From an uncultured Burkholderiales bacterium (lineage in GTDB: Bacteria > Pseudomonadota > Gammaproteobacteria > Burkholderiales > Burkholderiaceae_C), in NCBI GenBank assembly GCA_903956845.1, contig CAJBOO010000084.1, positions 1 to 32,187 of the forward strand: DNA of 32,187 nucleotides. Reading direction: 5' to 3'. This document shows positions 16,273 to 19,742 of this stretch, piece after piece (position 1 is the first letter of the stretch; each line of letters opens with the position of its first letter). The position numbers were made by a program, and so were the translations under genes. Below the pieces are notes generated by a model that was not told the DNA's origin, did not search any database, and was given only the letters and a program-made list of their open reading frames with translations.

Positions 16273-16289
16273 GACGCGTCTTGACCATG

Positions 16290-16319
16290 AAAAAAGGCGA
16301 CCCGCAGGTCGCCTTTTTT
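16290..16319 (+). terminator. Rho-independent terminator after minE
   Basis: Stem GGCGACC (16296-16302) and GGTCGCC (16307-16313) with the loop CGCA, flanked by six A residues before and six T residues after. The stem can extend through the A/T pairs. The A-tract and T-tract make it work in both directions, though no minus-strand gene ends here. Confidence 0.92.
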
Positions 16320-16490
16320 CATGGGTAGGGTCTGAAAAGAGTCTATCAAACCCCTGTGCAACTCAGATGAATGGAAGTTGGTCGCATGAATATGCGATTC
16401 GCCGAGATGAGAAGGTCTCCAAAATCGGCAAATGGTTTCGGCAATGAACACCAGACGATCCCCACTTTCCATCTGTACCAGGAAACACAC

Positions 16491-16886
16491 ATGCGCCAAC
16501 CCGACAGTTTCAACCACAACGCTTTGATGCAAATCATTTGTCAACTGCATGATTGGGAAAACCAACACCTCGAATTGGCCCACTCCCAAGCCGGTCGCTA
16601 CCTCTACCTCAACATCGTCAAACAATTACAAGGCAAGGCCGAGGGGCCCAGTGCCTTGCTCAAAGGCATCTACTACAACAAAGACCTGAGCGAGCGGGCA
16701 CTGCGCTACAAATTGCGGGAATTTGAAAACCAAGGCTTGATTGCTTTTGAGGCCAGCACCACGGACAAACGCTCCAAACGCATTTTGCCCACCGACAGTT
16801 TGGTGCAGACCATGGCAGACCATGCCAGTGCCTTTGACCAGTTGCTGGGCAAAGAATTCCTGGTCCTGCCCAAAAACAAAGCCTGA
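16491..16886 (+). CDS. Small winged-helix (MarR-like) protein
   Basis: A 131-aa cytoplasmic protein. An N-terminal helical part is followed by a winged-helix signature: KDLSERALRYKLREFENQGLI (recognition-helix region, about residues 63-83) and a wing with TTDKRSKRILPTDS, as in MarR/LexA-type DNA-binding proteins. Exact family is uncertain. ATG 16491 is preferred because AGGA lies 8 nt before it; an earlier in-frame start at 16371 has no such site. It begins after the minE terminator and ends 4 nt before the kinase gene. It is the only DNA-binding candidate of the three-gene signalling cassette, so it may be its output. Confidence 0.75.
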   Translation: MRQPDSFNHNALMQIICQLHDWENQHLELAHSQAGRYLYLNIVKQLQGKAEGPSALLKGIYYNKDLSERALRYKLREFENQGLIAFEASTTDKRSKRILPTDSLVQTMADHASAFDQLLGKEFLVLPKNKA

Positions 16887-16890
16887 TCCC

Positions 16891-17739
16891 ATGCTGTTGC
16901 CTGATGGTTTGACATGGACATGGCTGAGCTTGTTGTCGTTGGGCTTGGTGTGCCTTGGCCTGCTTTACCTTTGGCGGTCAGCTGTGTCGCGTCAGCAAGC
17001 CCTGCGTGAGCAACTCACCCACGCTCAGGCGGGCAAACAACGCTTGCAAGCATTCCTCACCTCGATGTCACACCACTTGCGCACCCCGCTCAACGGCATC
17101 ATGGGTTATGCGGAATACATCCACAGCAGCTCGCAAGAACCGATGGTGCAATTCACTTCCAAAATCATTTTGGAAAACAGCCTGCACATGCTTGACTTGG
17201 CCAATGGACTGCTGGATTTGTCGCATATCCAAGAAGGCACGCTGCGACTGTCGCAGTCATCCTTTGAAATCCATGACCTGCTCGATTCCTTGAAAGTGCT
17301 GCATCAAGCACGTGCAGATGAAGCAGGCATCCAACTCTTCACCCAAATCGCTCTAGACACGCCCGCCACGATGCACGCCGACCCCTATCGGGTGCGTCAG
17401 GTGCTCAACAACTTGCTGGACAACGCCTTGAAGTACACGCCGCCACAAGGCCAAGTGGTGATGGCCGTGTCACCCACCGCCAATGGCCAATGCGTCACTT
17501 TTTCCGTGCAAGACAGCGGGCCAGGCATCGCGCTCGAGTTGCAGCATCAACTGTTCAAGCCAGACTTCGCCGATCCTTCAAGCTTTGTGCTCCGGCCCAA
17601 AGAAGGTGCGGGTTTGGGATTGCTGCTGAGCCACCAACTGGTGGGCCTGATGGGCGGTACCCTGGACTTCACCACGCAGGTGGGCCAAGGCAGCTTGTTT
17701 TTTTTCACCCTGCCCTTGCAGGCAGACAACCCAGCCTGA
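16891..17739 (+). CDS. Membrane-anchored histidine kinase without sensor domain
   Basis: A 282-aa sensor kinase. A single hydrophobic helix (about residues 7-28) is followed by a short coiled linker and the HisKA H-box FLTSMSHHLRTPLNG with phosphoacceptor H61, then the N-box NNLLDNALKY (N174, N178), the G1 box DSGPGIAL and the G2 box GAGLGLLLSHQLVGLMGG. All catalytic boxes are intact. No periplasmic, PAS or HAMP domain is present, so the input must come through the membrane helix or a partner. The H-box reads SHHLRTP rather than the commoner SHELRTP. The gene starts 4 nt after the winged-helix gene and 3 nt before the receiver gene. Confidence 0.92.
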   Translation: MLLPDGLTWTWLSLLSLGLVCLGLLYLWRSAVSRQQALREQLTHAQAGKQRLQAFLTSMSHHLRTPLNGIMGYAEYIHSSSQEPMVQFTSKIILENSLHMLDLANGLLDLSHIQEGTLRLSQSSFEIHDLLDSLKVLHQARADEAGIQLFTQIALDTPATMHADPYRVRQVLNNLLDNALKYTPPQGQVVMAVSPTANGQCVTFSVQDSGPGIALELQHQLFKPDFADPSSFVLRPKEGAGLGLLLSHQLVGLMGGTLDFTTQVGQGSLFFFTLPLQADNPA

Positions 17740-17742
17740 GCC

Positions 17743-18102
17743 ATGACGCCTTTGCATGTGATGGTGGTGGACGACAACCCCACCAACCGACAGTTACCCG
17801 GCTTGTTTTTGCGCCCTTTGGGCCATGTGGTCAATGAGTGCGACAGCGCAGAACAAGCCCTGGCTTGGTTGGCTCATCAAGCCTGCGACCTGCTGCTGCT
17901 CGATATCTCCATGCCCCTGGTGAGTGGCTTGGAACTGTGCCGCCAACTGCGTGCACAACAGGGCTTGAAGCACCTGAAAATCATTGCCTACACCGCCCAC
18001 GCCATGCCGCATGAAGTGGCATTGCTGTTGGATGCGGGGTTTGATCAGGTGTTGCTCAAGCCCATCCGCAGCCAGGCCTTGTTAGAGGCCATTCAAACCT
18101 GA
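17743..18102 (+). CDS. Stand-alone receiver-domain response regulator
   Basis: A 119-aa CheY-like protein made of one receiver domain only. The acidic pocket is D10-D11, the phosphoacceptor D54, with T84 and K106 completing the conserved set. There is no output domain, so it must act by protein contact or as a phosphorelay step. It begins 3 nt after the kinase stop and is doubtless phosphorylated by it. CheY itself would sit among chemotaxis genes, which are absent here. Its likely partner is the winged-helix protein two genes upstream, but this is inference. Confidence 0.93.
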   Translation: MTPLHVMVVDDNPTNRQLPGLFLRPLGHVVNECDSAEQALAWLAHQACDLLLLDISMPLVSGLELCRQLRAQQGLKHLKIIAYTAHAMPHEVALLLDAGFDQVLLKPIRSQALLEAIQT

Positions 18103-18134: not shown

Positions 18135-19742
18135 TCAGGTGGTTTCCAGCTGAGGAAACCCCTCTGCTTGGGAGGCATCTTGAGGGGCCGGTGTGCGAAT
18201 CAGGTAATCAAACGCACTCAACGCTGCCTTCGCACCTTCACCTGCCGCAATCACGATCTGTTTGAAGGGCACGGTGGTCACATCACCCGCGGCAAACACG
18301 CCCGAGAGGTTGGTGTGCCCTTTGGCGTCCACCACGATTTCCCCGTGCTTGCTCAACTCGAGCGTGCCTTTCAAAAACTCGGTGTTAGGCACCAAGCCGA
18401 TTTGCACAAACACGCCTTCGAGCTCCAGGTGCTGTGAAGCTTGACTCACGCGGTCTGTGTAGCGCAAGCCATTGACTTTCTGGCCGTCACCGGTGATCTC
18501 GGCGGTTTGCGCATTCACATGGATGCTGACATTGGACAGGCTCTTGAGCTTGCTGACCAACACCGCATCGGCCTTGAGGCTGTCGGCGAATTCGAGCAGG
18601 GACACATGGGCCACCACGCCAGCCAAATCAATCGCTGCCTCGACGCCCGAATTGCCGCCGCCGATGACCGCCACGCGTTTGCCCTTGAACAAGGGGCCAT
18701 CGCAATGCGGGCAGTAGGCCACGCCTTTGTTTTTGTATTGCTCTTCGCCAGGGACGTTCACATTGCGCCAACGCGCACCCGTGCAGACGATCACGCTGCG
18801 CGACTTCAAGCTGCCGCCATTGGCCATGCGCACTTCGACCAAGCCACCTGGCTGTGAAGCGGGAATGATTTGTTCGGCACGTTGCAAGTTCATGATGTCC
18901 ACGTCGTAGTGGCGCACTTGGGCTTCCAGAGCGGACGCGAACGTCGGCCCATCGGTTTCCAAGACAGAGATGTAGTTTTCAATGCCCATGGTGTCATTCA
19001 CCTGACCACCAAAACGCTCAGCGGCCACACCCACGCGGATGCCTTTGCGCGCCGCATACACCGCGGCTGCCGCGCCTGCAGGACCACCGCCGACGATCAA
19101 CACATCGAACGGGTCTTTCTCGTTGAGCTTGGCGGCTTCACGCGCTGGGGTGCTGGTATCGAGCTTGCCCAATATTTCTTCCAGGCTCATGCGGCCGGAA
19201 CCCAACACGTGGTCATTGAGGTAAACCATGGGAACTGCCATGACTTGCCTTGCATCGACCTCCGCTTGGTTCAATCCGCCATCGATGATGGTGGTTTGAA
19301 TCTTCGGGTTAAAGACGGCCATCAACGTCGCCGCCTGAACCACATCGGGACAGTTGTGGCAGGACAAGGACATGTAAACCTCGAGCTTCATGGCCTGGTC
19401 CATCGCCTTGATTTGTGCAATCACTTCAGGCTCGACCTTGGGCGGGTGACCACCCGTCCAAAGCAGGGCCAACACCAAGGAGGTGAATTCATGCCCCAGT
19501 GGAATCGCCGCGAAACACACACCTTGAGTCTCCCCGTCTTTGGCAATCACGAAAGACGGCTTGCGGGCATCGTTGCCTGACTCATCCACGCTGACTTTGT
19601 CGGACAAAGACGCGATTTCATTGAGCAGTTCACGCATGTCTGCGCTGTGCTCACTTTGGTCGAGCGAGGCAATCAAGCGAATCGGATGACGCAAGTTTTG
19701 CAAGTAGGCTTGCAATTGGGTTTTCAAGGCGGTGTCGAGCAT
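18135..19742 (-). CDS. ahpF: Alkyl hydroperoxide reductase subunit F
   Basis: NAD(P)H-dependent flavoprotein disulfide reductase of 535 aa that recycles the peroxiredoxin AhpC. The N-terminal tandem thioredoxin-fold domain carries SCHNCPD (C128, C131); the FAD domain contains [10 protein letters not shown], the NAD domain [10 protein letters not shown], and the second redox pair is CPHCDG (C344, C347). Positions match the E. coli enzyme almost exactly. An AGGA lies 7 nt before the ATG. It follows ahpC after 24 nt and belongs to the same operon. Confidence 0.98.

Follow-up and report, generated by a model that had tools for sequence, protein, structure and literature searches.

The window analysed here, a stretch of 32,187 nucleotides from an uncultured Burkholderiales bacterium (contig CAJBOO010000084.1), carries three open reading frames between minE and ahpF, which encode a small winged-helix protein (wH), a histidine kinase (HK) and a lone receiver (REC). 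Comparison with related genomes suggests that this set is a reduced form of a genus-restricted cassette at minCDE, whose fuller form would run OmpR-type response regulator (RR), wH, HK, REC. What is new here is the upstream RR in nine relatives, together with a promoter repeat; the cassette itself is a genus-restricted variant of known signalling parts, and we consider the loss series of the RR to be the more interesting part of its story. The original prediction for this locus, that DNA binding by wH is controlled through contact with the receiver, is partly supported as a whole. We tentatively prefer another reading, to which we give slightly less than an even chance: HK and REC form a coupled module, and wH is a co-expressed, facultative regulator.

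The three frames lie on the plus strand, exactly where they had been predicted. wH (131 aa; 16491–16886), an open frame with orthologues in relatives, is followed by HK (282 aa; 16891–17739) after 4 nt, the spacing originally given, and HK by REC (119 aa; 17743–18102) after 3 nt. The set had also been described as following the terminator of minE. An intrinsic terminator does lie there, at 16285–16324 of the plus strand, with an 18-pair stem, a 4-nt loop and a T-run; it folds at −31.3 kcal/mol (z −8.17), and none of 200 shuffles of 16285–16324 folds equally well. This hairpin is absent from the output of a terminator pattern scan, which it probably escaped because its A/T arms pair with the T-run. 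A promoter scan gave no match. Downstream, ahpF (18135–19742) is on the minus strand, convergent with the cassette, so the statement that the cassette precedes ahpF is right as to position only. In none of the 23 related loci checked is ahpF near the cassette. minE, on the other hand, flanks the cassette in 10 of the 16 genomes besides the window that have a close wH (at least 55% identical to that of the window), most of the remaining loci having a flank too short or cut to judge; it also flanks the cassette genes of genomes G261 and G210. In several relatives, a gene whose small product appears to be exported and contains KKSDSGICH as a repeated segment sits between minE and the cassette (for example, L005:3624–4106, minus strand); none is seen in the window.

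HK is a minimal histidine kinase. Pfam finds HisKA at E 4.5e-14 and HATPase_c at E 5.7e-24, each above cut-off, and the H, N and G boxes are present. Its first 78 residues contain a single hydrophobic stretch, residues 7–25 (16909–16965; KD19 hydropathy 1.86), predicted to be a membrane helix, and no sensor family reaches the Pfam cut-off; the kinase was thus correctly described as having one membrane helix and no sensor domain. The predicted phosphoacceptor, His61 (17071–17073), lies in the box SHHLRTPLN, which is found in 16 of 16 kinases examined, a sample outside which the interrupted G215 kinase stands. The orthologue in L005 is 57% identical. REC yields Response_reg (E 9.3e-28) as the sole Pfam family above cut-off, in keeping with the claim that it lacks an output domain, and its acidic pair, phospho-Asp, T and K mark it as a single-domain response regulator. 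Asp54 (17902–17904), within LLDISMP, is the predicted phosphorylation site, and this motif is accompanied by the acidic pair, T and K in all 16 receivers examined.

The family of wH is less sharply drawn. Its best Pfam matches are HTH_12 (E 9e-4) and MarR (E 0.11), both sub-threshold, and the MarR score of 12.8 bits compares with a family cut-off of 24.6. Since no curated cut-off is reached, we reject wH as a member of the MarR family proper and call it MarR-like. Five of the 17 members of the wH alignment match MarR at E up to 0.1, and a 17-sequence wH profile finds MexR as its best PDB match (E 5e-4), nearly all of the top dozen of 37 entries listed being named MarR, SlyA-like or MexR. An AlphaFold model, built with two sequences as input, is of low confidence (mean pLDDT 49); at that confidence, the order of helices and strands is as expected for a MarR-like protein, and residues 69–80 (16695–16730, plus strand) are the predicted recognition helix. 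Residues 66–80 are the most conserved segment, with a mean pairwise identity of 0.95 across 13 orthologues, window included. wH is also the tightest-constrained gene of the set: its dN/dS (Nei-Gojobori) is 0.027–0.055 in seven close pairs of relatives, compared with 0.05–0.22 for HK and 0.05–0.19 for REC (nine close pairs each) and 0.16–0.17 for the RR (two close pairs), with dS above 1, and hence saturated, in many of the dN/dS pairs. wH is a tightly conserved and probably DNA-binding protein.

How widely is the cassette distributed? Searched with the single wH sequence, 200 genomes of the family yield relatives in 3, one of them the window's; a wH profile has matches in 9 of 399 genomes from the family and in 1 of 369 from the class, that one being the window, and an earlier profile matched 21 of 399 genomes of the order, mostly weakly. 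The order-level wH loci were scanned with the four cassette proteins. Within the genus, where many genomes are incomplete draft assemblies, a broad profile matches 32 of 84 genomes at E up to 1e-4, and a close wH is found in 17. HK and REC lie directly downstream of the close wH in 16 of these 17; in the other, G254, the contig ends inside wH. All three frames are open in 13 of the 16 triplets, the imperfect ones being those of G216 (contig starts inside wH), G279 (wH frameshifted) and G215 (HK and REC interrupted). G210, which is outside the close-wH count, has a 43% identical wH with broken pieces of HK and REC near minE. Because HK and REC follow wH so regularly, a chance grouping of the three genes is excluded. 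In the samples searched, wH is rare outside the genus, and the cassette is genus-restricted.

More distant arrangements vary. The order wH, long kinase, REC occurs in G232, G234, G237 and G238, and because the long kinase of G232 carries a dCache-like sensor match above cut-off, we infer that the short, window-type kinase lost its sensor. In G250, wH adjoins REC, with no HK match beside them; in G272, REC precedes wH, and the adjoining gene is a convergent hybrid kinase, followed further out by another kinase. Around other wH genes, neither HK nor REC is matched at E up to 1e-3. A distant wH-like frame, of 116 aa, is in the window's own genome (G000:C221:12349–12693, locus L002; E 3e-4 with a single-sequence query), and there is no kinase or receiver match beside it. 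Of the wH genes without HK or REC neighbors, one in G087 and one in G276 are beside HlyD and ABC-transporter genes. Paralogues beside type I secretion genes are seen at L067:5043–5423, L144:5281–5673, L065:4156–4578 and L141:5460–5897, the HlyD and ABC genes being confirmed by Pfam in L067 and L144 and by eye in L141; the L065 paralogue also adjoins an ORF of 2697 aa. Such paralogues may regulate surface or secreted giant proteins. In G219 (L062:2415–3065, minus strand), a convergent LuxR-type gene lies beside wH; it has GerE above cut-off, and a receiver domain is not matched at E up to 1e-3.

The original prediction held that the arrangement differs from ordinary two-component systems. This is true of the window, whose operon contains no response regulator with an output domain of its own, but not of nine relatives (G270, G255, G254, G274, G244, G269, G277, G280 and G279), in which an OmpR-type, DNA-binding RR is encoded directly upstream of wH; in G279 the RR is itself preceded by a further kinase gene. 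Trans_reg_C is above cut-off in all four of the upstream RRs scanned. Eight of the nine could be aligned (frameshifted G244 was left out), and each of them retains the phospho-Asp position; the DNA-binding domain is conserved as well. The rest of the receiver is another matter: three RRs (G255, G254, G279) keep both the acidic pair and the Lys, one (G274) keeps the Lys alone, and four (G270, G269, G277, G280) have neither. No RR is found upstream of the cassette in the window, G206, G213, G223, G276 or G261; G221, with 70 bases of flank, and G216, with none, are outside this count. At least three branches of the tree lack the RR, namely the window, the G206/G213/G223/G276 group, and G261. No RR match adjoins the window's wH, and the best RR relatives elsewhere in its genome are 33–35% identical. 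Before the wH of G215 there is a weak RR-like stretch of 21 residues (L007:822–884; 48%, E 0.086), which may be a relic of a lost RR gene.

Presence of the RR goes with a promoter element. All nine RR-containing genomes have a direct repeat of 10 bp, TCAGTTTnnnTCAGTTT, some 70 bp ahead of wH. In eight of eight, two copies of TCAGTTT with a period of 10 bp lie at −66 to −73 relative to the start codon of wH, with 0 to 2 mismatches, and are matched by 0 or 1 of 300 shuffles in each; the G279 repeat, at −69, has 3 mismatches and no shuffle score. The repeat is absent from all six RR-less genomes that have wH and enough flank (window, G206, G213, G223, G276, G215), G221 again being left out for its short flank. 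Their best repeat-like matches have 4 or 5 mismatches and are equalled by 133 to 284 of 300 shuffles; for the window, the figures are 5 mismatches and 207 of 300. The intergenic region before the window's wH (16325–16490) therefore contains neither an OmpR-type RR gene nor the repeat. These scores come from the same data in which the repeat was first seen, as alignments, and the nine RR-containing and six RR-less genomes are related, so they do not count as independent events. The link is also imperfect, because G261 keeps a 3-mismatch repeat, seen in its sequence just before HK, without an RR. As a regulon-wide signal the repeat was rejected: at two mismatches its forward plus reverse counts exceed a reversed-pattern control in 2 of 16 genomes (G277 and G280) and equal that control in one. 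Among the matches listed for G255, the only exact one is the cassette's own. wH was likewise considered as the protein that binds the repeat, and it is a less likely binder than the RR, since its recognition helix is nearly unchanged in genomes that lack the repeat.

A survey from the receiver side shows which parts can be dispensed with. A profile built from receivers beside wH matches 30 of 84 genus genomes at E up to 1e-25, and 26 of the 30 have LPG or LPA in helix alpha1 of REC. Among the other four, in G202, G226 and G256 the receiver stands alone and its gene converges on that of a large kinase, and the G208 contig ends before a wH could show. wH is in the same cassette in 22 of the 26; the remaining four genomes (G261, G264, G235 and G217) have an HK-REC pair and no wH at E up to 1e-4. 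In G261, the pair is intact at the same minE locus, with neither RR nor wH. This locus, and the placement of G261 as sister of G255 (support 90), which has both genes, make their loss from G261 the simplest reading; dN/dS between the two is 0.07 for HK and 0.10 for REC, with dS above 1. The wH-less pairs of G217 and G235 are found near a hybrid kinase and a lone HPt gene. In G217 (L136:1509–5390), hybrid kinase, receiver, short kinase and LPG receiver stand in succession, the opposite strand carries the lone HPt gene (identified with Pfam), and the arrangement in G235 (L135) is similar. These gene runs could encode a multi-step relay that works without wH. Lone receivers beside kinases also occur elsewhere in the order.

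It is this persistence of HK-REC pairs, without RR and wH in G261 and without wH in G264, G217 and G235, that leads us to favor HK and REC as the core. Their stable association is further indicated by the junction, where the genes overlap by 4 nt in 13 of 15 cassettes and are 3 nt apart in the remaining two, and by the catalytic residues (H, Asp, the acidic pair, T and K), which are intact in 16 of 16. On this reading, the membrane-anchored, sensorless HK would autophosphorylate and pass the phosphoryl group to the co-translated REC, as the conserved catalytic residues suggest, and the pair would act as a split hybrid kinase. REC would then contact at least one partner besides wH; the simplest candidate is an HPt protein or another kinase. 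wH, as a MarR-like DNA-binding protein, would be tied to the circuit mainly through the shared operon and would be a facultative part of it. In the relatives, the OmpR-type RR may drive the wH-HK-REC operon from the 10-bp repeat with which it is correlated; the window lineage has neither the RR nor its putative site.

The proposed partner of REC needs some comment. In receivers, alpha1 is the docking face for kinases and HPt, and alpha4-beta5-alpha5 is the usual output face. In REC (n = 15; mean pairwise identity, element limits set by hand and no control family), alpha1, with its RxLPGLxLR signature (17779–17820, plus strand), is the best conserved helix at 0.90, and alpha5, at 0.45, is the least conserved element; this contrast favors a partner other than wH. 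The lower elements also include alpha3 (0.66), alpha4 (0.57) and alpha2 (0.54), so that alpha4 belongs to the bottom four of the 13 elements scored; it would be wrong to call alpha4 and alpha5 the two lowest, since alpha2 is below alpha4. Against the argument from alpha1, two loops exceed it, beta4-alpha4 (0.97) and beta5-alpha5 (0.93), and these contain the conserved T and K. The profile is a weak argument for the type of partner. HPt is favored by the lone HPt genes near the G217 and G235 pairs and by the single such gene that the window genome shows at an E threshold of 0.01, and we regard it as a candidate partner of this REC. Other observations go against our preferred reading. A loose partner would be expected to share the cassette less often than in 22 of 26 genomes, and wH, supposedly facultative, is the most constrained gene of the set. 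Moreover, wH and REC adjoin without an HK match beside them in G250, and REC precedes wH in G272.

The original prediction is one that we consider possible, though less probable: phosphorylated REC would bind wH and switch its DNA binding, the two together being a response regulator in two polypeptides. Conserved co-occurrence was the check proposed for it, and the regularity of the triplet among close-wH genomes bears it out, as do the four genomes with wH, long kinase and REC, the contiguity of wH and REC with no kinase between them in G250 and G272, and their being neighbors in most genomes with this receiver. There is also precedent: pull-downs with the Xanthomonas single-domain regulator McvR recovered HpaR1, Zur and two proteins of the HU family (PMC8995066). 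On the other side, failure of wH to co-occur had been named in advance as contrary evidence, and this is what is seen, in part, at the cut-offs used: four of the 26 genomes with this type of receiver keep HK-REC without a detected wH. The low conservation of alpha5, and to a lesser degree alpha4, also speaks against contact through the usual face, subject to the limits of the profile given above. Finally, in the comparable archaeal MA4377 arrangement, the Msr proteins were negative in what its report terms preliminary data (PMC11784639).

The decay seen in the upstream RRs admits two further readings. In one, which we think unlikely, a response regulator is being dismantled: the OmpR-type RR would lose receiver residues, then its gene and the repeat, and REC and wH would replace it as a two-polypeptide regulator under a sensorless kinase. 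In the other, more doubtful still, REC acts in trans, replacing the decayed receiver of the RR, contacting the RR and controlling its binding to the repeat, a target now gone from the window lineage. The acidic pair and Lys lost from four of eight RRs, and the pair lost from a fifth, next to a conserved DNA-binding domain and a repeat retained at the wH promoter, would fit such a role, but none of the eight has lost the phospho-Asp, and REC is present both with an intact RR receiver (G255, G279) and without any RR (window and others). Least probable of all is that the cassette is a decaying remnant, unimportant in the window strain and lost piecemeal across the genus: the branches without RR, the possible relic in G215, the broken look of wH in G279, of HK and REC in G215 and of the kinases in G210 and G208 (draft assemblies), and the higher dN/dS between window and G270 (wH 0.21, HK 0.26; REC not computable) would fit, but dN/dS is low in the RR-less pairs G206/G223 (wH 0.04, HK 0.14, REC 0.15) and G213/G276 (0.05, 0.14 and 0.19), and the catalytic residues are kept in the window's HK and REC.

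Single-domain response regulators form a large group, and their mode of action on gene expression has been called unclear (PMC8995066). The cassette's combinations of parts within one genus (RR, wH, HK and REC; wH, HK and REC; HK and REC; wH next to REC) amount to a series of deletions made by nature, which allows tests of what a lone receiver and the DNA-binding protein beside it do. Among the matches listed in a search of the open-access literature, we found no description of this cassette. The Burkholderia BiofilmReg operon is made of other parts, and its authors did not find orthologues in Comamonadaceae (PMC5192318).

Several known systems resemble parts of the cassette. McvR of Xanthomonas campestris, like REC, is receiver-only with an important aspartate, and binds separate DNA-binding proteins (PMC8995066); VemR, also receiver-only, interacts with AtoC in X. 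oryzae (PMC9218911). As far as the relevant passages of these papers go, both differ from the cassette in having no co-encoded MarR-like protein and dedicated kinase. In Methanosarcina acetivorans, the kinase MA4377 has REC-only regulators and HTH regulators (MsrC/MsrX) nearby, so that output is likewise separated (PMC11784639). That system is archaeal, its HTH family is another one, and the Msr regulators were excluded by the authors on preliminary data (PMC11784639). Likeness to TorS-type hybrid kinases is of a different kind. The TorS model is the best NCBIfam match of HK and of REC, followed by BarA and other hybrid kinases, all far below cut-offs; in the cassette, however, kinase and receiver are separate polypeptides, encoded in the window by separate ORFs 3 nt apart, with neither sensor nor HPt domain, and so do not make a hybrid histidine kinase. 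ArlR and MgrA of Staphylococcus aureus are of OmpR and MarR type, respectively. The ArlRS two-component system acts via MgrA as its downstream effector (PMC6548404), which recalls an RR upstream of wH. In the cassette, control of the wH operon by the RR is suggested by the promoter repeat alone, and unlike the staphylococcal pathway, the wH operon includes its own kinase and receiver.
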